This document shows positions 20,343 to 28,409 of a stretch of DNA of 42,247 nt, in pieces (position 1 is the first letter of the stretch; each line of letters opens with the position of its first letter). Both the position numbers and the translations under genes were made by a program. The notes beneath the pieces were generated by a model. That model was given only the letters and a program-made list of their open reading frames with translations. It did no database searches and was not told where the DNA came from. Source of the DNA: Neisseria sp. (lineage in GTDB: Bacteria; Pseudomonadota; Gammaproteobacteria; Burkholderiales; Neisseriaceae); the NCBI RefSeq assembly GCF_030523955.1, contig NZ_JAUNHL010000022.1, forward strand, positions 1 through 42,247. Direction: 5' to 3'.

Positions 20343-21761
20343 TCAGGCCAATTTGGCATCGGTAAATAAGACCAGTGCTTTTTCGCGTTGTACGGCATGG
20401 TCGACCATGGGGGCAGGATAGCCGTTGCGGTCGATATTGCTGCCGCCAAGCCACGGGGCGTGAATGAAATGATGGTCCAGATGGGCGATTTCAGGCAGGT
20501 GGCGGCGGATAAAGCGTCCGTCGGGGTCGAATTTGTAGGATTGTGTAATCGGATTGAATATGCGGAAGTAGGGCTGGGCGTCACAGCCGGTGCCGGCCGC
20601 CCATTGCCAGTTACCGTTGTTGGCAGCCAAGTCGAAATCCAAGAGTTGGGCGGCAAACCATTCTTGCCCCAGCCGCCAGTCGATTAATAAGTCTTTGCAT
20701 AAAAAGCTGGCGGTGATCATGCGCAGGCGGTTGTGCATTTGGCCGGTTTGGGCAAGTGCGCGCATGGCGGCATCGATAATGGGATAGCCGGTTTGGCCTC
20801 TTTGCCAGCGCTCCAGCCATTCGGGATGGTTTTGCCAGGCCAGGTTACGGTATTCGGCGCGAAAGGCATTGTTCGCCACATCGGGATAATGGTAGAGCAA
20901 TTGCTGGAAGAATTCACGCCACACCAATTCTTTCAGCCACAAGGCACCGCCTTCGTTGTCGGCTTGTTTGGCCAGATAAACCAGATGACGGATGGAAAGC
21001 GCACCGAAGCGCAGGTGTACGGATAGCTGCGAGGTGCCGCGTTTGGCCGGAAAATCTCGGGTGAGCGGGTAGTCGGCCAGCCGGTTCAGAAAATCGCCTA
21101 ACGCGGCTTGGGCGGCGGTTTCGCCGCCGGCTTGTACCAAAGGCTGTGTTTGGAAACCAAGTGAAGATAAAGATGGCGGCGGCGGGCTGGCGGGCAGGGC
21201 GGCGGGCAGTTTTTGCTGCAAGCGGTGCAGCGCGGGCCAGTCGTCGCGGCTTTGCCAGCCTGCATATTGTTCGTTTGCGATGGCAAGCCAAGCTTTGTAA
21301 TAGGGTGTGAATACTTGATAGGGCTGCCCTTGTTGGGTCATCACGGCGGATTTGGCCAGCAATACTTGGTCGGTAACGGCCTGAAAATGAATATCGGCGG
21401 CAATCAGCTTGGCGGCTACCCGGGTATCGCGGGCAATGGCTTGCGGTTCGTAGTCTTCGGCGCAGATAACGGTTTTAGCGCCGATTTCGGCCGCCAGCGC
21501 GGGAATCTCGATATCGGCCCGGCCGTGGCGGAAATAAAGCGGAATCTTGAGTTCGGCAAGTTTGCGGTGCAATTCGCTGAGGCATTGGTGAATAAAACTT
21601 AAGCGGCGGTCGTGAGCGGGCAGTGGGGCCAGAATATCGCTGTCGAACAAAAATACGGCGGCCAGCGGGCGGCCTTGGCGGATGGCGGTTTGCAGAGCGG
21701 TATGGTCGAAGGTGCGCAAGTCGCGGCGCAACCAGACCAGGGTGAGGGCTTGGGTAGTCAT
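20343..21761 (-). CDS. phr: Deoxyribodipyrimidine photolyase
   Basis: A 472-residue class I CPD photolyase/cryptochrome-family flavoprotein that repairs UV-made pyrimidine dimers with light. The N-terminal antenna domain starts LTLVWLRRDLRTFDHTAL. The FAD domain includes RFGALSIRHLVYLA, LVWREFFQQLLYHYP, RMITASFLCKDLLIDWR and the highly conserved NNGNWQWAAGTGCDAQPYFR followed by IFNP. The length is typical. The ATG overlaps the TGA of the LysR gene by one base (TGATG), so translation is coupled to that regulator, an unexpected partner. No LexA-type box was recognised. Confidence 0.95.
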   Translation of the reverse strand: MTTQALTLVWLRRDLRTFDHTALQTAIRQGRPLAAVFLFDSDILAPLPAHDRRLSFIHQCLSELHRKLAELKIPLYFRHGRADIEIPALAAEIGAKTVICAEDYEPQAIARDTRVAAKLIAADIHFQAVTDQVLLAKSAVMTQQGQPYQVFTPYYKAWLAIANEQYAGWQSRDDWPALHRLQQKLPAALPASPPPPSLSSLGFQTQPLVQAGGETAAQAALGDFLNRLADYPLTRDFPAKRGTSQLSVHLRFGALSIRHLVYLAKQADNEGGALWLKELVWREFFQQLLYHYPDVANNAFRAEYRNLAWQNHPEWLERWQRGQTGYPIIDAAMRALAQTGQMHNRLRMITASFLCKDLLIDWRLGQEWFAAQLLDFDLAANNGNWQWAAGTGCDAQPYFRIFNPITQSYKFDPDGRFIRRHLPEIAHLDHHFIHAPWLGGSNIDRNGYPAPMVDHAVQREKALVLFTDAKLA

Positions 21762-22684
21762 CAGGCGGTATAGGCTTGGTTGTAAGCTTTTTCCAGTAAG
21801 GGGGTAATGTCTTTTAATAGGCGTACCAGTTCACGCTGGGTGCGGGATAAGGTGTGTTTGGCGGAAGTGGCGAGGAACAGCTGGCTGGTAAATACCGGCG
21901 AGGCAATCGGGATGACTTCCACGCTTTCTGGATGGCGCATCAATTCGGTGGTACAGGGCGAAAGAATGGCATAACCCATGCCGTCGGATACCAATTTGAG
22001 CATGGCTTCCACGCTGTTGATTTCCAGACGGATATTCGGAATCAGATTGTGGCGCGCCATTTCTTCTTCTATCAGCAGACGGAATGAATTGGGCGCTGAC
22101 GGTGCAATCAGCGGCAGTTCGGCCAATTGCGCGGCGCTAAGGCCCTTGGTGGTTACGTTTAAAGCATGGTTTTTGGGCGCAATCAGATGCAGTCGCTCTT
22201 CGTAAAACAGCTGTTTGTCGAGGTGGGGCGAGTAGGCGGGGTTGTACAGCAGCGCCATATCGATTTTGCCTTGCTGCAAGTGTTCCTGCAGATGGCTGGT
22301 GAGCCCTTCGATGATGCTGATGTGGGCATCGGGCAGTTGTTTTCGAACGGCTTTGATAATGTCTACCGACAGCAGCTTGGCCACGGTGGGCGGCAGGCCG
22401 AGGGTGATGTGGCCGGTCAGCTTGCCGGTGCTGGCGCTTAAATCTTCCTGAATAGCATCGATTTGTTGTTGGATAATACGGCAATGATCCAGCAGGATGC
22501 GGCCGGAATCGGTAAGCGATACGCCGCGGCCGTGGCGGTTGAGCAGGTTGTGGCGCAACTCGGTTTCCAAGAGGCGGATCTGGCGGCTGAGCAGTGGCTG
22601 CGCGACGCCGAGAAAGTCGGCGGCGCGGGTATAACTGCCCAATTCGGCAACGTGCATGAAATATTTTAATTGTTTCAAATCCAT
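21761..22684 (-). CDS. LysR-family transcriptional regulator of the hydroaromatic cluster
   Basis: A 307-residue regulator. The N-terminal winged helix-turn-helix (residues 1-60: MDLKQLKYFMHVAELGSYTR, then AADFLGVAQPLLSRQIRLLE) is followed by a periplasmic-binding-like effector domain (about 90-300). It is divergent from the tautomerase gene with a 155-base gap, the classical layout in which the LysR protein controls the opposite operon in response to a pathway metabolite. The likely effector is quinate, shikimate, protocatechuate or a derived acid (inference from neighbours). The closest paralogue group was not determined. Its downstream partner phr is coupled by a one-base overlap. Confidence 0.88.
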   Translation of the reverse strand: MDLKQLKYFMHVAELGSYTRAADFLGVAQPLLSRQIRLLETELRHNLLNRHGRGVSLTDSGRILLDHCRIIQQQIDAIQEDLSASTGKLTGHITLGLPPTVAKLLSVDIIKAVRKQLPDAHISIIEGLTSHLQEHLQQGKIDMALLYNPAYSPHLDKQLFYEERLHLIAPKNHALNVTTKGLSAAQLAELPLIAPSAPNSFRLLIEEEMARHNLIPNIRLEINSVEAMLKLVSDGMGYAILSPCTTELMRHPESVEVIPIASPVFTSQLFLATSAKHTLSRTQRELVRLLKDITPLLEKAYNQAYTA

Positions 22685-22720
22685 TTTTCCGCCTATTATG
22701 ATATTAATGGTGTTTCCGGA

Positions 22721-22808
22721 GCTGAAAACTATTCAATTTTGTTATAGCTGCTAGACAGTATATCAGCTTTTAAAAAGGTTTTTCAGCCATAATAATCCGA
22801 GCATTATT
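22721..22808. promoter_or_regulatory. Candidate LysR operator region
   Basis: Within the lysR/tautomerase gap, GCTGAAAA (22721-22728) faces TTTTTCAGC (22779-22787), and a perfect dyad AATAAT-CCGAGC-ATTATT lies at 22791-22808, about 30 bases before the tautomerase start. No textbook T-N11-A motif could be fixed with confidence, so this is a candidate only. Confidence 0.35.
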
Positions 22809-22839
22809 TTGGCGAACAGTGATGAGGAAAGGACACAAA

Positions 22840-23931
22840 ATGGGCAGTCAGACGGCGGTTCCGGCTATGTTGATGCGCGGCGGCAGTTCGAAAGGCCTGT
22901 TTTTTGCGGCGGCGGATTTGCCCTCGGAGACGGCTGTGCGTGATGCGGTGCTGTTGGCGGCGATGGGTTCTCCAGATCCGCGACAGATCGACGGCGTAGG
23001 CGGTGCCCATCCGCTGACCAGCAAAGTCGGCATCGTATCGCCGGGGCGCGAGCCGGGTGTGGACTTGGAATTTTTGTTTGCCCAACTGCAACCTGCCAAG
23101 GATACGGTGGATACCCAGCCCAATTGCGGTAATATGCTGGCGGCGGTGGTGCCCTTTGCGCTGGAAACCGGTATGGCCAAGGCACAGGGTGAAGAGACGA
23201 CCTTGCGTGTATTGACTTTGAATACCGGTATGCTGAGCGATATTACGGTATGCACGCCGGGCGGGCAGATTGCGTATGAGGGCGATGCCCGCATCGACGG
23301 CGTACCCGGTACCGCAGCGCCGGTACGCATCCGTTTTCTGGATACCGAAGGCTCGGTGGCGGGCAGTCTGCTGCCGACCGGGCAGGCGAAAGATGTATTC
23401 GATATCGAGGGTTTCGGTAAGTTAGAAGCCACCTGTATCGATAACGGCATGCCGATGGTGCTGGTGCGTGCGCAAGATGTCGGCCGCAGCGCTTACGAAA
23501 CGGTGGCCGATATGAATGCAGATAATGAGCTGAAGGCGCTGTTGGAGAAACTGCGTTTGCAGGCGGCTTTGGCAATGGGCTTGGGCGATGTTTCGCAGAA
23601 AAACTATCCGAAGATGTGTTTGCTCAACCGGCCTTTACACGGCGGTGCGGTGCATACCCGCTGTTTTATCCCCCACGTTTGTCATGATGCTATCGGCGTA
23701 TTGGCGGCGGTAACGGTAGCGACGGCTTGCGTGATGGACAATAGCGTGGCGGCCGGTTTGGCCGAAACGCCGCCGTCCGGCAGTTGGTCGGTCGAGCATC
23801 CCAGCGGCGAATTCAGCGTAGCGCTCGAAGTTGATGCGGCAGGCAAAGTGGCGGGAGCGGCTTTAATCCGCACGGCACGCAATCTGATGCGCGGCGAGGT
23901 GTTGATACCAGCTTCGGTTTGGTGCAAATAG
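22840..23931 (+). CDS. PrpF/GalD-family isomerase, probable 4-oxalomesaconate tautomerase
   Basis: A 363-residue protein of the PrpF family (diaminopimelate-epimerase-like double fold). Recognisable are PAMLMRGGSSKG at the N-terminus, GSPDPRQIDGVGG, QPNCGN, the LGDVSQKNYPKMCLL segment and VEHPSGEF near the C-terminus, all of which I recall from Pseudomonas GalD (4-oxalomesaconate tautomerase of gallate/protocatechuate 4,5-cleavage). PrpF proper isomerises aconitate in the methylcitrate cycle and cannot be excluded. The start at 22840 is chosen for AAAGGA 7 bases before it. It is the first gene of the cluster, followed after 62 bases and an uptake sequence by the dehydrogenase. Confidence 0.8.
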   Translation: MGSQTAVPAMLMRGGSSKGLFFAAADLPSETAVRDAVLLAAMGSPDPRQIDGVGGAHPLTSKVGIVSPGREPGVDLEFLFAQLQPAKDTVDTQPNCGNMLAAVVPFALETGMAKAQGEETTLRVLTLNTGMLSDITVCTPGGQIAYEGDARIDGVPGTAAPVRIRFLDTEGSVAGSLLPTGQAKDVFDIEGFGKLEATCIDNGMPMVLVRAQDVGRSAYETVADMNADNELKALLEKLRLQAALAMGLGDVSQKNYPKMCLLNRPLHGGAVHTRCFIPHVCHDAIGVLAAVTVATACVMDNSVAAGLAETPPSGSWSVEHPSGEFSVALEVDAAGKVAGAALIRTARNLMRGEVLIPASVWCK

Positions 23932-23933
23932 TT

Positions 23934-23945
23934 TTCAGACAGGCA
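23934..23945 (-). repeat. DNA uptake sequence (TG-wadDUS)
   Basis: Exact TTCAGACAGGCA inside the presumed operon, between the tautomerase and dehydrogenase genes. Confidence 0.85.
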
Positions 23946-23993
23946 TTCTTAAAAAGATTAAAACAAACAAAACAGGCAAAGGAGAAATAGATT

Positions 23994-24830
23994 ATGTTGA
24001 TTAACGGCCAAACCCAAGTGATTGCACACATCGGCTTTCCCACACACACCTTCAAATCGCCGATGATTTACAACCCGTATTTCGAGGCGGCCGGCGTTAA
24101 TGCGCTGGTGGTACCGTTTTCTTCGCAGGCGCCGGTTTATCCGGATTTTCTGCGCTCGGTTTTTACCTGCGAGAATGTGATCGGCGCGCTGGTGACCATG
24201 CCGCATAAGGTAACTACCATCGGCTTGGTCGACAGATTAACGCCGACGGCATTGGTGGCCGGTTCCTGCAATGCGGTGCGCCGCGGCACGGACGGCAAGC
24301 TGGAGGGCGATATGTTCGACGGCGAGGGCTTTGTGCGCGGCGTACGCCGCAAGGGCTTTGCGCCGGAGGGAAAAAGTGCGCTGGTGGTCGGCAGCGGCGG
24401 CGTCGGTTCGGCGATTGCCGCATCGTTGGCGGCGGCCGGTGTGGCGCGTTTGGCGCTGTTTGACCTCAACAACGCCTCTGCCGATGCGCTGGCCGGGCGT
24501 TTGCGCGAACATTATCCGGCTTTGACGGTCGAAACCGGCAGCAACGATCCGGCCGGTTTCGATTTGGTGGTCAATGCCACGCCGATGGGCATGAATGCGA
24601 ACGATCCGATGCCGATGGATGTTGAGCGCATTGCGCCGGAAACTTTTGTCGGCGAAGTGGTGTTGCAAAGCGAAACCACTGCGTTTCTGGCGGCGGCCAA
24701 GGCGCGTGGCTGCAAGGTGCAGGTCGGTACCGATATGCTGTTCGAGCAGATTCCGGTGTATCTGGAATACTTCGGCCTGCCGAGTACCACGGCGGAACAT
24801 TTGCGCGAAGTGGCGCAGATCCGTTATTGA
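23994..24830 (+). CDS. Shikimate/quinate dehydrogenase-family protein, NAD-type
   Basis: A 278-residue AroE-superfamily oxidoreductase. The catalytic pair is kept: K72 (in ALVTMPHK) and D109 (in GDMFDGEG). The dinucleotide fold GSGGVGSA (133-140) is followed by LFDLNN with D157 where NADP-dependent AroE has the N-R-T motif, so NAD+ is the likely cofactor, as in catabolic YdiB/QsuD-type enzymes. The substrate-binding region reads FPTHTFKSPMIYN, with an insertion relative to the usual HSxSP. It should oxidise shikimate or quinate, or a close relative, to the 3-dehydro acid. AAAGGAG precedes the start. It is not the biosynthetic AroE, judging by these differences and the context. Confidence 0.82.
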   Translation: MLINGQTQVIAHIGFPTHTFKSPMIYNPYFEAAGVNALVVPFSSQAPVYPDFLRSVFTCENVIGALVTMPHKVTTIGLVDRLTPTALVAGSCNAVRRGTDGKLEGDMFDGEGFVRGVRRKGFAPEGKSALVVGSGGVGSAIAASLAAAGVARLALFDLNNASADALAGRLREHYPALTVETGSNDPAGFDLVVNATPMGMNANDPMPMDVERIAPETFVGEVVLQSETTAFLAAAKARGCKVQVGTDMLFEQIPVYLEYFGLPSTTAEHLREVAQIRY

Positions 24831-24838
24831 TGGATATG

Positions 24839-24872
24839 CTTTCAGACAGGCATTTTGATGCCTGTCTGAAAA
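24839..24872. terminator. Inverted uptake-sequence hairpin within the catabolic cluster
   Basis: TTCAGACAGGCA (24841-24852), six bases, TGCCTGTCTGAA (24859-24870), then eight A residues on the plus strand. It may reduce read-through between the dehydrogenase and transporter genes. Confidence 0.6.
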
Positions 24873-24956
24873 AAAACATACGGCTGGCTTGGGTATGCAA
24901 AATCCATGCCGGCGTGCTGAATAACAGTAAAAAATGTGATGAAAGAGGAGAAACTG

Positions 24957-26297
24957 ATGTCACAATCCAATGAAATCAATGTCCGCGAGCTGCTCGACAG
25001 CCGCGAGATCAGCCTTTATCAGAAGCTGGTGATTTTTCTTTGCTTCCTGATTGTGGTGATGGACGGCTTCGACGTGGTGATTATGGGCTTTGTCGGCCCC
25101 GCTTTGAAGGAAGCCTGGAGCCTGAGCAACAATGATTTGGCGCCGGTGTTGAGCGCCGCCTTGTTCGGTTTGACTTTCGGCGCGTTGACCGCGGGCCCGC
25201 TGGGCGACCGTTTCGGTCGCCGCAAGGTGTTGATTGTCAGCGTATTCGTATTCGGTTTGTTTACGCTCTTGGTGGCGTTTACCGAGAGCATAACCGCTTT
25301 GATTGTCTACCGCTTTATCGCCGGTTTTGCGATGGGCGGCATTATGCCCATGGTGGCGACCTTGGCTAAGGAATATTCGCCGGCACGCCGCAGCGCGCTG
25401 ATGGTCACCATCGTATTCGCAGGCTTTACCGTGGGCGCGGCCGGCGGCGGTTTCTTGGCGGCTTGGATGATTCCGCAATGGGGTTGGGAGAGTGTGTTTG
25501 TCTTCGGCGGTGTGCTGCCGATTCTGCTGAGCCTGTTCATGATTTTCCGACTGCCCGAATCGCTGACTTTCATGGTGCACCACGGCCACGACCGTAAAGC
25601 CATCCGTGCCATCGTTGAACGCTGCGCGCCCGGCAGCACCACGGAAAACAGCGTGTTTACCGTACCGGCCGCCACCACCGTAAACGCCAACGAAAATGCG
25701 GTGAAAACCGTGTTGAACAGCCACTACCGTACCGGCAGCCTGTTGTTGTGGCTGATCTACTTCTGCCACTTGTTCTTGGTGTATCTGTTGGGCAGCTGGA
25801 TGCCGACCATGATTAAAGAGTCGGGCATGTCGTTCCAACAAGCTTCGATTATTTCCGCCATGTTCCAATTGGGCGGCCCGCTCGGCTCAGTGATGTTGGG
25901 CTGGCTGATGGATAAACTGGAACCGCACCGCGTATTGTCCGCCTCTTATCTGCTGGGTGCGGTGGTGTTGGTGCTGATGAGCAACATCGGCGGCGAATAC
26001 GTATTGCTGTGCATTACCGCCTTTATCATCGGCGCGGCCTTCAACGGCGGCGGCACCGGCATGAATGCCTTATCGAGCAACTTCTTCCCCTTGAGCGCCC
26101 GCGCCACCGGTAACAGCTGGATGCACGGTATCGGCCGCACCGGTGCCATCATCTCCGCCTTTGCCGGCGCCTGGATGTTGAACCAAGGCTGGAACTTCTC
26201 TACCGTAGCCGTTGCGCTCACCGTTCCTGCCGTCATCATCGCCGTTGCGCTGACCGTGAAGTTCTTTGTTTACCGCCACGCGCCGAAAGCGGATTAA
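24957..26297 (+). CDS. MFS transporter, aromatic acid:H+ symporter family (PcaK-like)
   Basis: A 446-residue inner-membrane carrier with 12 predicted helices. The family marks are DGFDVVIMGFVGPALKEAW in helix 1 and the GPLGDRFGRRKVLI loop between helices 2 and 3, plus a central cytoplasmic loop (about residues 205-255). Members import protocatechuate, 4-hydroxybenzoate, benzoate or hydroaromatic acids with protons. Placed between the dehydrogenase and the dehydroshikimate dehydratase, quinate, shikimate or protocatechuate uptake is most likely. GGAG lies 7 bases before the start at 24957; an upstream in-frame ATG is less likely. Confidence 0.87.
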   Translation: MSQSNEINVRELLDSREISLYQKLVIFLCFLIVVMDGFDVVIMGFVGPALKEAWSLSNNDLAPVLSAALFGLTFGALTAGPLGDRFGRRKVLIVSVFVFGLFTLLVAFTESITALIVYRFIAGFAMGGIMPMVATLAKEYSPARRSALMVTIVFAGFTVGAAGGGFLAAWMIPQWGWESVFVFGGVLPILLSLFMIFRLPESLTFMVHHGHDRKAIRAIVERCAPGSTTENSVFTVPAATTVNANENAVKTVLNSHYRTGSLLLWLIYFCHLFLVYLLGSWMPTMIKESGMSFQQASIISAMFQLGGPLGSVMLGWLMDKLEPHRVLSASYLLGAVVLVLMSNIGGEYVLLCITAFIIGAAFNGGGTGMNALSSNFFPLSARATGNSWMHGIGRTGAIISAFAGAWMLNQGWNFSTVAVALTVPAVIIAVALTVKFFVYRHAPKAD

Positions 26298-26308
26298 TAC
26301 CGCCAAAA

Positions 26309-26372
26309 TGCCTGTCTGAAAATCAGCGGAGGTTTGCAATTTTTAAACCGACCGCTTGTTTTCAGACAGGCA
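26309..26372. repeat. Widely spaced inverted uptake-sequence pair
   Basis: TGCCTGTCTGAA (26309-26320) and TTCAGACAGGCA (26361-26372), 40 bases apart, after the transporter stop. The stem is possible but the loop is long. Confidence 0.6.
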
Positions 26373-26424
26373 TTATTATTCGCTTTTAAGATAGAATGTG
26401 TAGCGGTTACCCGGCATTTTATTT

Positions 26425-26436
26425 TTCAGACAGGCA
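26425..26436 (-). repeat. DNA uptake sequence (TG-wadDUS)
   Basis: Exact TTCAGACAGGCA, 28 bases before the start of the dehydroshikimate dehydratase gene. Confidence 0.85.
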
Positions 26437-26464
26437 TTTCCCGCCGACCCTATGGGAGAACACC

Positions 26465-28345
26465 ATGAAACACAGTATCGCCACCGTATCGCTCAGCGGT
26501 ACGCTGCCAGAGAAATTACAGGCCATTGCCGCCGCCGGTTTCGACGGCGTGGAAATTTTTGAAAACGACCTCTTGTATTTCAGCGGATCGCCGGCCGATA
26601 TCCGCCAAATGTGCGCCGATCTCAATCTGGAAATTATGCTGTTCCAGCCGTTTCGCGATTTTGAAGGCGGCCCGAGGGGGCGTTTGGACAGACAGCTCGA
26701 CCGCGCCCGCCGCAAGTTCGAATTAATGGCCCAATTGGGAACCGACCGCCTGCTGGTGTGCAGCAACGTATCGCCCGCTACCAGCCGCGACAACAAACTG
26801 ATCGCCGAAGATTTGCACCGCTTGGCCGAATGCGCCGCCGAACACGGCATGCTGGTCGGCTACGAAGCACTGGCCTGGGGCGCACACATCTATTCATACC
26901 GTCATGCCTGGCAGTTGGTGCAGGCCGTGAACCACCCGAATCTCGGCATTATCCTTGATAGCTTCCACACCCTGTCGATAGAAGACGACTTAAGCACCTT
27001 GTCGCAGATACCGCCGGAAAAAATCGTATTCGTGCAGCTGGCCGACGCGCCGAAAATGAAAATGGACGTGCTCGAATGGAGCCGGCACTACCGCAATTTC
27101 CCCGGCCAGGGCGAATTGGACGTGGCCGCGTTTGTCAAACCGCTGATTGCCAACGGCTACGACGGCCCCTTGTCTTTGGAAGTGTTCAACGACAAATTCC
27201 GCGCCGCACCCGGTACCGGCACCACCCGCGATGCGCGCACCTCGCTGTTTTACGTAGAAGAGCAGGCCGGCCGGCAGATACAGGCCGAAAAACAGCCGCG
27301 CCCGGCCGACGTATTCCATCCACCGCTGCCGCCTGAATACCGCGGCATGGAGTTTATCGAATTTGCCGTTAACGACGAACACGCCGAAAGCCTAGGCGCC
27401 GTGCTCGAACAATTCGGTTTTTGCCGTACCGGCGAGCACAAAACCAAAAACGTACACCTCTACCAGCAAGGCGACATCCGCCTGATTCTGAACGCCGAAC
27501 CCGATTCGCTGGCCGATGCTTTTTTCGCGGCGCACGGCACCTCAGTATGCGCCACCGCCTACACCGTCGCCAACGCCCAACAACTGTACGACCGTGCCGT
27601 CGGCTACGGCTGCAAGATTTACGAAGGTAAAGTCGGCCCTAACGAGCGGCATATTCTGGCGGTGCGCGCGCCCAACGGCAGCTTGCAATATTTTGTCGAC
27701 AGCAATATTTACGATGCCGATTTCCATCTCGCCCCGCAAAGCGGCGAAACGCTGCTCGAGCGCATCGACCATGCCGCCTTCGGCATGACGCCCGATACGG
27801 TAGAGAGCTGGACGCTGCATTTTCGCGCCATATTCGGCTTCCAAATCGAAGCAGATATGACGCTGGCCGACCCCTACGGCCTGATGAAAAGCCGTGTATT
27901 GCGCAGCGAAAACCGCTGCGTGCGCCACCCTCTAAATGTTTCCAGCGACCAAAACACCGTATTGTCGCGCTCGGTGGCCACTTATAAAGGCACCGGACTG
28001 CAACACATCGCCTTTAGTTGCGACGACATTTTCAGCACCGTACAAAAACTGCGTGCCAACGGCGCCCGCCTGCTCGATATTCCCGATAATTATTACGATG
28101 ATCTGCAAGCACGTTTCGGCTTGGAAGACGAGTTTACCAACCGTTTGCGTGAACACCATTTGCTGTACGACGCCGATGGTGCCGGCGGCGAGTTTTTGCA
28201 TGTTTATTCCGAGCCGGTGGAAGAGCGGTTCTTCTTCGAAGTGATCCAGCGCATCAACGGTTACGACCAATACGGCGCCGCCAACACGCCGGTGCGGCTG
28301 ATGGCGCAGGATTTGTATTGGAAACGGCATCACGAAAAAGCGTAA
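26465..28345 (+). CDS. quiC: 3-Dehydroshikimate dehydratase fused to an HPPD-like domain (QuiC/QsuB type)
   Basis: A 626-residue two-domain enzyme. Residues 1-280 form a sugar-phosphate-isomerase-like TIM barrel with the metal ligands expected for bacterial dehydroshikimate dehydratases: E134 (GYEALAWG), D165 and H168 (LDSFHTL), Q191 (VQLAD) and E239 (SLEVFND). It dehydrates 3-dehydroshikimate to protocatechuate. Residues about 310-626 are two vicinal-oxygen-chelate modules like 4-hydroxyphenylpyruvate dioxygenase, with IDHAAFG, LQHIAFS and FFFEVIQR supplying His-His-Glu. In known fusions this half lacks an assigned essential reaction. Length agrees with QuiC1/QsuB (about 620-635). GGGAG lies 6 bases before the start. 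Confidence 0.92.
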   Translation: MKHSIATVSLSGTLPEKLQAIAAAGFDGVEIFENDLLYFSGSPADIRQMCADLNLEIMLFQPFRDFEGGPRGRLDRQLDRARRKFELMAQLGTDRLLVCSNVSPATSRDNKLIAEDLHRLAECAAEHGMLVGYEALAWGAHIYSYRHAWQLVQAVNHPNLGIILDSFHTLSIEDDLSTLSQIPPEKIVFVQLADAPKMKMDVLEWSRHYRNFPGQGELDVAAFVKPLIANGYDGPLSLEVFNDKFRAAPGTGTTRDARTSLFYVEEQAGRQIQAEKQPRPADVFHPPLPPEYRGMEFIEFAVNDEHAESLGAVLEQFGFCRTGEHKTKNVHLYQQGDIRLILNAEPDSLADAFFAAHGTSVCATAYTVANAQQLYDRAVGYGCKIYEGKVGPNERHILAVRAPNGSLQYFVDSNIYDADFHLAPQSGETLLERIDHAAFGMTPDTVESWTLHFRAIFGFQIEADMTLADPYGLMKSRVLRSENRCVRHPLNVSSDQNTVLSRSVATYKGTGLQHIAFSCDDIFSTVQKLRANGARLLDIPDNYYDDLQARFGLEDEFTNRLREHHLLYDADGAGGEFLHVYSEPVEERFFFEVIQRINGYDQYGAANTPVRLMAQDLYWKRHHEKA

Positions 28346-28374: not shown

Positions 28375-28409
28375 AATGCCTGTCTGAAAACGGTTTTCAG
28401 ACAGGCATC
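28375..28409. terminator. Inverted uptake-sequence hairpin after quiC
   Basis: TGCCTGTCTGAA (28377-28388) and TTCAGACAGGCA (28396-28407) with a 7-base loop, 31 bases beyond the quiC stop. It probably ends the catabolic transcript. Confidence 0.75.

Follow-up and report, generated by a model that had tools for sequence, protein, structure and literature searches.

Sphingobium and Comamonas degrade protocatechuate through the lig/pmd 4,5-cleavage pathway, in which the order of the steps is established. Two-domain 3-dehydroshikimate dehydratases, consisting of a TIM barrel and a C-terminal domain resembling 4-hydroxyphenylpyruvate dioxygenase (HPPD), include QuiC1 of Pseudomonas putida and QsuB of Corynebacterium glutamicum; a paper on these enzymes describes the role of the HPPD-like domain as unknown and mentions the beta-ketoadipate pathway (PMC7442255). 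In Novosphingobium aromaticivorans and Sphingobium SYK-6, lig genes are under LigR, a LysR-type activator whose sites lie at about −48 to −85 of the transcription start (PMC12710314). Here, we compare these systems with a gene cluster, lysR / omaT-aroEL-mfsQ-quiC, in a window of 42,247 nucleotides that is the entire contig C52 of a Neisseria genome (G000). With a probability of roughly 0.78, this cluster provides the entry of hydroaromatic acids into a protocatechuate 4,5-cleavage pathway split between two loci, its LysR-type regulator probably controlling both. The enzymes are of known kinds and it is the host that is unexpected: Neisseria are usually pictured as mucosal bacteria living on glucose, lactate and pyruvate. 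Our literature search, which left subscription papers mostly outside and is therefore weak evidence, returned no paper joining Neisseria, quinate, shikimate and protocatechuate, and no report of such catabolism in Neisseria among the titles and opening lines of abstracts listed.

A first-pass annotation of the window had proposed a hydroaromatic catabolic cluster of five genes, which we confirmed: all five lie where it placed them (Table 1), and each family was recognized in profile searches against Pfam and NCBIfam, the equivalog cut-offs of the latter being strict naming thresholds. Its fused 3-dehydroshikimate dehydratase also held up. The closest solved structure to QuiC was 5hmq, QuiC1 of P. 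putida (734 bits, residues 1–615 of 626), and the protein covered positions 1–623 of 635 of profile NF042435 with 839.5 bits, although the cut-off of 1200 was not reached, nor was it passed in any of 83 Neisseriaceae genomes. In the alignment, QuiC kept, at identical numbers, all ten active-site residues published for QuiC/QsuB (R64, L97, E134, L136, D165, H168, Q191, S206, R210 and E239; PMC7442255). The His-His-Glu triad of its HPPD-like domain was likewise kept when aligned with the HPPD chain 1cjx. The three other intact QuiC proteins that we found were 71–72% identical to that of the window and invariant in the ten active-site columns, which implies continuing selection. Conversion of 3-dehydroshikimate to protocatechuate by QuiC is thus strongly supported by its sequence. 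The start of quiC is probably at 26465 (MKHSIATVS...) rather than at the open reading frame start at 26396, because homologues align from there. In contrast to QuiC1 and QsuB, the window enzyme belongs to a Neisseria, its product would enter 4,5-cleavage, and its cluster includes a 4-oxalomesaconate tautomerase and no dehydroquinase, which the C. glutamicum qsu operon does contain. A separate HPPD-like protein is encoded on contig C37 (L018) of G000 and scored 191 bits against the HPPD half of the QuiC model, so that the HPPD-like half of QuiC stands beside a second HPPD-like protein in this genome.

The tautomerase is what ties the cluster to the remaining pathway. OmaT exceeded the cut-off of the 4-oxalomesaconate tautomerase model NF033377 (496.6 bits; cut-off 440), fell far below that of the PrpF model (191 bits; cut-off 440.55) and matched the (4E)-oxalomesaconate Delta-isomerase 6p3j with 365.5 bits; ATG 22840 may be a better start for the gene. 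The first-pass annotation had counted this gene among those making protocatechuate, which did not stand: judged by these matches, omaT is a downstream ring-cleavage gene with no part in that synthesis. The annotation had asked for a search for ring-cleavage and downstream genes elsewhere in the genome, counting their absence as refuting if joined by a phylogeny that placed the dehydrogenase and dehydratase with non-hydroaromatic enzymes. Such genes are present; the phylogenetic half of the condition was covered here for the dehydratase, by the tree described below. A LigB search singled out contig C99 of G000 by a strong hit (E = 1.3e-76; L029); there, mfsP, ligJ, ligK, pobA, ligI, ligA, ligB, ligC and akr (aldo/keto reductase) follow in this order on one strand, flanked by pyrBI and the rplQ-rpoA ribosomal operon (names by inspection of translations). 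No tautomerase was found in the 19 kb of C99 that were read. This is the only step lacking there, and since it is found in the window instead, neither locus is complete alone.

LigK, PobA and LigA of C99 exceeded equivalog cut-offs, and LigB exceeded that of the class III extradiol beta-subunit subfamily (508.6 vs. 317). Solved relatives of the same function were matched by LigB (1b4u, 372 bits), LigJ (4-oxalomesaconate hydratase 2gwg, 640 bits) and LigI (2-pyrone-4,6-dicarboxylate hydrolase 4d8l, 342 bits), as by the tautomerase; LigC was assigned from PF19858, PF01408 and its position, nothing else. LigA, B, C, I, J and K and the tautomerase are therefore all present in G000, as in the lig/pmd pathway, with the differences that the tautomerase and regulator sit with shikimate genes on another contig and that pobA (4-hydroxybenzoate 3-monooxygenase, L029:6699-7868) lies inside the lig locus, as does mfsP, a second PcaK-type symporter gene. 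4-Hydroxybenzoate is likely to be a second growth substrate, as predicted from pobA. Contig C106 of G000 encodes a second PrpF-family protein (274.4 bits), which is below the tautomerase cut-off. Weaker LigB matches in Neisseria (E = 4.5e-27 to 8e-8) were set aside as other PF02900 members. Cleavage of protocatechuate at the 3,4 position (beta-ketoadipate pathway) was rejected, as the PcaGH-type intradiol dioxygenase family (PF00775) was unmatched in the five other Neisseria carriers of the cluster and gave a weak partial match in G000, namely a 280-aa protein on contig C97 (L088:6187-7029; positions 2–97 of 182, E = 3e-10 to 5e-10).

In the pathway that we propose, the symporter MfsQ would import shikimate, which the AroE-like enzyme would, judging from its family and motifs, oxidize with NAD+ to 3-dehydroshikimate, and QuiC would dehydrate the latter to protocatechuate. 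LigAB, encoded on C99, would open the ring, LigC and LigI would yield 4-oxalomesaconate, OmaT of the window would isomerize it, LigJ would hydrate the tautomerase product and LigK would split the result into pyruvate and oxaloacetate. PobA would feed 4-hydroxybenzoate into this lig trunk. The window LysR would most likely switch on both loci from a promoter element that they share, in the manner of LigR at the lig genes of sphingomonads. As far as genes show, the catabolic pathway is real and complete, from shikimate and 4-hydroxybenzoate to pyruvate, and part of the genus Neisseria may thus use plant-derived acids by means of two distant loci, each dependent on the other, under one putative LysR element.

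We surveyed the 83 Neisseriaceae genomes for these genes (46 belong to the genus of the window, 37 do not), and six Neisseria carriers emerged: G000, G009, G018 (Bergeriella denitrificans NBRC 102155), G040 (Neisseria sp. metagenome-assembled genome (MAG) S32M_Sa_16), G050 (Neisseria weixii 10022) and G051. Intact full-length quiC was present in four genomes (G000, G018, G040 and G051), and G050 had the gene in two pieces; all other matches covered the HPPD half only. The search for a shared gene order proposed by the first-pass annotation was answered by the four intact carriers, in which lysR / omaT-aroEL-mfsQ-quiC is identical. Nine genomes contained ligB at E <= 1e-20, namely G000, G009, G018, G040 and G051 (88–100% identity) and the four of genus g4, and all four genomes with intact quiC were among them (89–100% identity to ligB of G000). 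The tautomerase exceeded its cut-off in ten genomes: the six Neisseria carriers and the four of genus g4. The cluster and the lig genes lie within about 26 kb in G051 and adjoin in G009. In G009 (L050:1725-7353), an unrelated open frame of 218 aa stands between aroEL and mfsQ, while omaT, aroEL, mfsQ and the lig genes are kept. In N. weixii (L046, L141), quiC, fad1 (a flavoprotein gene treated below), ligK, pobA and ligI are in pieces and omaT, aroEL and mfsQ read through; the stretch read yielded neither ligA nor ligB nor ligC, and the search of the genome no ligB. These breaks may reflect pathway decay or sequencing errors; the latter may explain some of them, because the genome is a single contig with 85% completeness.

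Control of both loci by one regulator was suggested by an element which, like the tautomerase link to 4,5-cleavage, the first-pass annotation had missed. Aligning the lysR-omaT and pre-mfsP intergenic regions of the six carriers revealed a 15-base box, GWTATAVCTVNTAKW, followed after 35 bases by AATAAT. It precedes omaT and mfsP in all six, with the spacing of 35 at 11 of 12 sites (30 at omaT of N. weixii), and it also precedes ligJ in G000, a site not used to write the pattern. With a spacing of exactly 35, 12 exact matches were counted over the 83 genomes, and every one lies at omaT, mfsP or ligJ of one of the six carriers. When one mismatch was allowed, 17 matches in 11 genomes were obtained, which included three in genus g4 (G005, G006 and G008), each upstream of mfsP, and two strays (G034 and G046); four sites, ligJ of G000 and the three of genus g4, thus lie outside those from which the pattern was written. 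Dinucleotide shuffling of the regions upstream of omaT, mfsP and ligJ of G000, 20000 times each, never produced the two-part element and produced the box alone 0, 3 and 3 times, respectively. A promoter-like match, TTTAAA-16-AATAAT, at 22769–22796 means little alone, because shuffles gave 4.6 such matches (sd 1.9) vs. the seven found. With the transcription start assumed to be 7 bases past AATAAT, the box is about 48–62 bases upstream of it, within the range of LigR sites. A shared site is thus found upstream of the target operons at the distance of LysR-type regulators, where binding is predicted.

The window LysR was 64–68% identical to the regulators at the same position in the five other Neisseria and 51% identical to that facing omaT-ligJ-ligK in G008. 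The lysR gene faces omaT-ligJ-ligK-ligI-ligA-ligB-ligC in G008 and precedes omaT-mfsP-ligJ-ligK in two Vogesella loci; lysR and omaT thus stand before lig genes there but before shikimate genes in Neisseria. The occurrence of lysR at lig genes in G008 and Vogesella means that the window LysR is most simply read as the regulator of the lig pathway, with binding predicted, and it probably controls both loci via the element. This resembles the LigR regulon in that a LysR-type activator would act on lig genes from a similar distance, but the box GWTATAVCTVNTAKW is unlike the LigR consensus and the putative regulon includes shikimate genes.

The substrate is the less certain part of the pathway. 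The first-pass annotation had called AroEL an NAD-type shikimate/quinate dehydrogenase, of which the AroE family and the NAD motif stood. AroEL aligns with AroE in the K, N and D motifs, and after the nucleotide-binding glycine motif it has LFDLNN, with Asp, vs. LANRSV, with Asn-Arg, in the biosynthetic AroE of G000 (L073). An acidic residue replacing Asn-Arg after the dinucleotide motif marks a preference for NAD+ rather than NADP. The quinate/shikimate label was not borne out by the equivalog models (NF010631: 91.3, cut-off 515; NF009390: 81.9, cut-off 349), and all NCBIfam shikimate dehydrogenase models also scored AroEL under cut-off. Its best solved relative was 4k28, a shikimate dehydrogenase (SDH)-family protein (173 bits), followed by 2egg (92 bits) and the 5-ketofructose reductase 7cok (89 bits), while PDB chains named quinate/shikimate dehydrogenase or YdiB reached at most 88.4 bits. 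We take 4k28 to be RifI2 of P. putida, an NAD+-preferring enzyme whose activity on quinate is no more than a trace. This hit is not specific to AroEL, because a second AroE-like protein of G000, on contig C14, also matched 4k28 best (147 bits). AroEL is probably an NAD+-dependent shikimate dehydrogenase, by sequence. Type I dehydroquinase (PF01487) was unmatched in G000, the single type II enzyme (PF01220) is encoded on contig C55, outside the cluster, and the pyrroloquinoline quinone (PQQ)-dependent quinate dehydrogenase family (TIGR03074) had no match in the six Neisseria carriers. With no dedicated dehydroquinase, no PQQ enzyme and a relative of the 4k28 type, shikimate is favored over quinate as the predicted substrate, quinate being weakly supported; of the proposed import of hydroaromatic acids and their conversion to protocatechuate, the shikimate part therefore stood better than the quinate part. 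MfsQ scored below the cut-offs of NF053517 (442.9 bits; 770) and TIGR00895 (390.4 bits; 418.55) and is likely an importer of shikimate or a relative.

A pathway with quinate as the main substrate, in which the AroE-like enzyme would be a quinate/shikimate dehydrogenase and the biosynthetic dehydroquinase would bridge quinate to 3-dehydroshikimate, is accordingly rather unlikely, although QuiC-type clusters can serve quinate and shikimate jointly, as in the qsuABCD operon of C. glutamicum (PMC7442255), and the type II dehydroquinase of G000 could perform the linking step. The missing enzymes and the structural comparison just given speak against it, as does a cluster devoid of a dehydroquinase gene. 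It is also distinctly unlikely that the pathway chiefly serves external 4-hydroxybenzoate and protocatechuate, the shikimate genes being a minor or decaying add-on: pobA and the second PcaK-type symporter in the lig locus, the lig genes of G009 without quiC and the broken quiC of N. weixii would fit, but quiC is intact in four genomes and its conserved proteins imply continuing selection. AsbF-type dehydratases, which have a single domain and act on 3-dehydroshikimate, work in siderophore synthesis, and the cluster could by analogy divert 3-dehydroshikimate from the cell's own aromatic biosynthesis into protocatechuate for an iron-binding compound rather than a nutrient. We regard this as very improbable, as an importer and a dehydrogenase predicted to be oxidative stand in the cluster, a ring-cleavage tautomerase is its first gene, and the common promoter element also precedes lig genes.

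Several observations weigh against the split 4,5-cleavage pathway that we prefer to these alternatives. QuiC, MfsQ and the AroE-like protein all fall under the strict NCBIfam equivalog cut-offs, and the sequence of AroEL does not settle its substrate. G009 keeps lysR, omaT, aroEL, mfsQ and the lig genes without quiC, so that the shikimate genes there may serve something else, and in N. weixii five genes (quiC, fad1, ligK, pobA and ligI) are broken and ligB was not found in the genome. As for regulation, the LigR consensus TT-N-GC-N6-TTAT was absent from all 13 of the omaT, mfsP and ligJ upstream regions checked, so that regulator and site are linked by position and conservation. The reversed pattern with one mismatch, used as a control, gave 16 matches in the 83 genomes, one of them in G000; compared with 17, the one-mismatch tally alone is not significant, and it is the 12 exact matches, with their locations, that carry the argument. 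The pathway as a whole is read from genes, and growth and enzyme function are predictions.

Table 1. Features of the catabolic cluster in the window (positions of the forward strand).
Feature	Position	Strand	Remarks
LysR-type regulator	21761..22684	-	PF00126 + PF03466; divergent from omaT
Two-part promoter element GTTATAGCTGCTAGA-N35-AATAAT (predicted)	22741..22796	+	upstream of omaT
omaT, 4-oxalomesaconate tautomerase (LigU/GalD type)	22819..23931	+	PrpF fold; NF033377; PDB 6p3j
DNA uptake sequence, TG-wadDUS	23934..23945	-	
aroEL, AroE-family dehydrogenase	23994..24830	+	PF08501
Inverted uptake-sequence pair	24841..24870	.	between aroEL and mfsQ
mfsQ, PcaK-type aromatic acid/H+ symporter family MFS protein	24936..26297	+	NF053517, TIGR00895, both below cut-off
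Inverted uptake-sequence pair	26309..26372	.	between mfsQ and quiC
Uptake sequence	26425..26436	-	just upstream of likely quiC start
quiC, two-domain 3-dehydroshikimate dehydratase (TIM barrel + HPPD-like domain)	26465..28345	+	NF042435; PDB 5hmq
Inverted uptake-sequence pair	28377..28407	.	after quiC

Bacteria other than Neisseria also have quiC close to this AroE-like gene. The pairing recurs in the Enterobacteriaceae loci found and in three other betaproteobacterial loci, and in 38 of 42 loci of the genome collection the flanks of quiC (up to 10 kb) contained an AroE-like gene at 45% identity or above. The loci of Rhodoferax, Buttiauxella, Kluyvera and relatives and of Vogesella encode a QuiC 48–66% identical to that of the window; the AroE-like neighbor is 58–70% identical to AroEL in the betaproteobacterial and Enterobacteriaceae loci, whereas the three Vogesella loci have no aroEL homologue of at least 45% identity within their flanks. 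Rhodoferax, a Burkholderiaceae MAG and two of the three Vogesella loci also have lig genes nearby. In a tree of 43 QuiC rows (midpoint-rooted for drawing only; not among the rows are two broken or partial sequences, L135 and L139, and one truncated by the end of its stretch, L149), the four Neisseria proteins grouped together (support 100/99) within a group of eight (97/94) that also held three Vogesella and the Burkholderiaceae MAG, themselves a clade with 93/91. The window row had a long end branch (0.37).

As the first-pass annotation had noted, DNA uptake sequences (DUS) occur inside the cluster. The 12-mer TGCCTGTCTGAA (TG-wadDUS, wadDUS being defined in PMC3630211) was found six times in 21761–28345 (0.91/kb) and 30 times in the other 35.7 kb (0.84/kb), with no AG-DUS in the window. 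Stretches around the loci of G018, G051, G050 and G009 carry AG-DUS, those of G009 also three copies of the 11-mer GCCTGTCTGAA, and the G040 stretches contained none of the uptake variants searched. Contamination of the contig was rejected, as C52, C99, C22 and C14 of G000 share one uptake dialect and the lig genes adjoin ribosomal genes and rpoA. Recent foreign arrival is likewise disfavored by the host-dialect uptake sequences at background density in G000 and by the monophyly of the neisserial QuiC. These sequence patterns suggest a cluster long resident and adapted to each host, which they fit and do not prove. The three inverted uptake pairs in and after the cluster could act as attenuators or terminators. 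The uptake hairpins on either side of mfsQ may conceivably split the operon; terminator-like matches (13) did not exceed the level in shuffles (mean 10.7, sd 2.8).

A third locus recurs with these genes. On the minus strand of C14 (L085:4430-10667), a small TIM barrel (tim, PF01261), two FAD_binding_2 flavoproteins (fad1 and fad2) and the second AroE-like protein (aroE2) are encoded, with a PcaR/PobR-like IclR regulator divergent from them. The flavoproteins resemble ketosteroid and 4-oxocyclohexanecarboxylate dehydrogenases, under NCBIfam cut-offs. FAD1 was found at E <= 1e-60 in 5 of the 83 genomes, all carriers (in pieces in G050), and not in G040, an 85% complete genome. The gene adjoins mfsP in G051, G050, G009 and G018. 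Of the genes matched in G009, mfsP-fad1-aroE2-fad2-tim form an unbroken series; G050 has tim and fad1 placed between quiC and mfsP, and aroE2 was not found there (two PF08501 matches); in G051, aroE2-fad2 are distant, at 2.60 Mb. TIM at E <= 1e-20 was restricted to G000 and the distant class member G459 among 369 genomes of the class, and 131 plasmid records had a TIM match under 60% identity. FAD1 and TIM lie near quiC in G459 and on a Marinovum plasmid, there next to an annotated shikimate 5-dehydrogenase and a 4-hydroxyphenylpyruvate dioxygenase that is QuiC by tblastn; on Rhodococcus and Paraburkholderia plasmids, they occur without quiC in the stretch read.

The four neisserial TIM proteins aligned to QuiC keep E134, D165, H168, Q191, S206, R210 and E239, of which we take E134, D165, Q191 and E239 to be metal ligands, and lack R64, L97 and L136; of the seven kept residues, the Rhodococcus, Paraburkholderia and Marinovum proteins have 7, 6 and 5, respectively. 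It is possible, though doubtful, that aroE2, fad2, fad1 and tim form a second, undescribed hydroaromatic route, in which AroE2 would oxidize a ring hydroxyl of a saturated acid (e.g., dihydroshikimate or a dihydroxycyclohexanecarboxylate), the flavoproteins would desaturate the ketone so formed, and TIM would be a single-domain dehydratase. Such a route would supply the lig trunk with protocatechuate or 4-hydroxybenzoate by aromatizing reduced plant acids found in the animal gut or mouth, and in G009 it would replace QuiC. This flavoprotein and TIM-barrel module is a candidate new route for reduced hydroaromatic acids.

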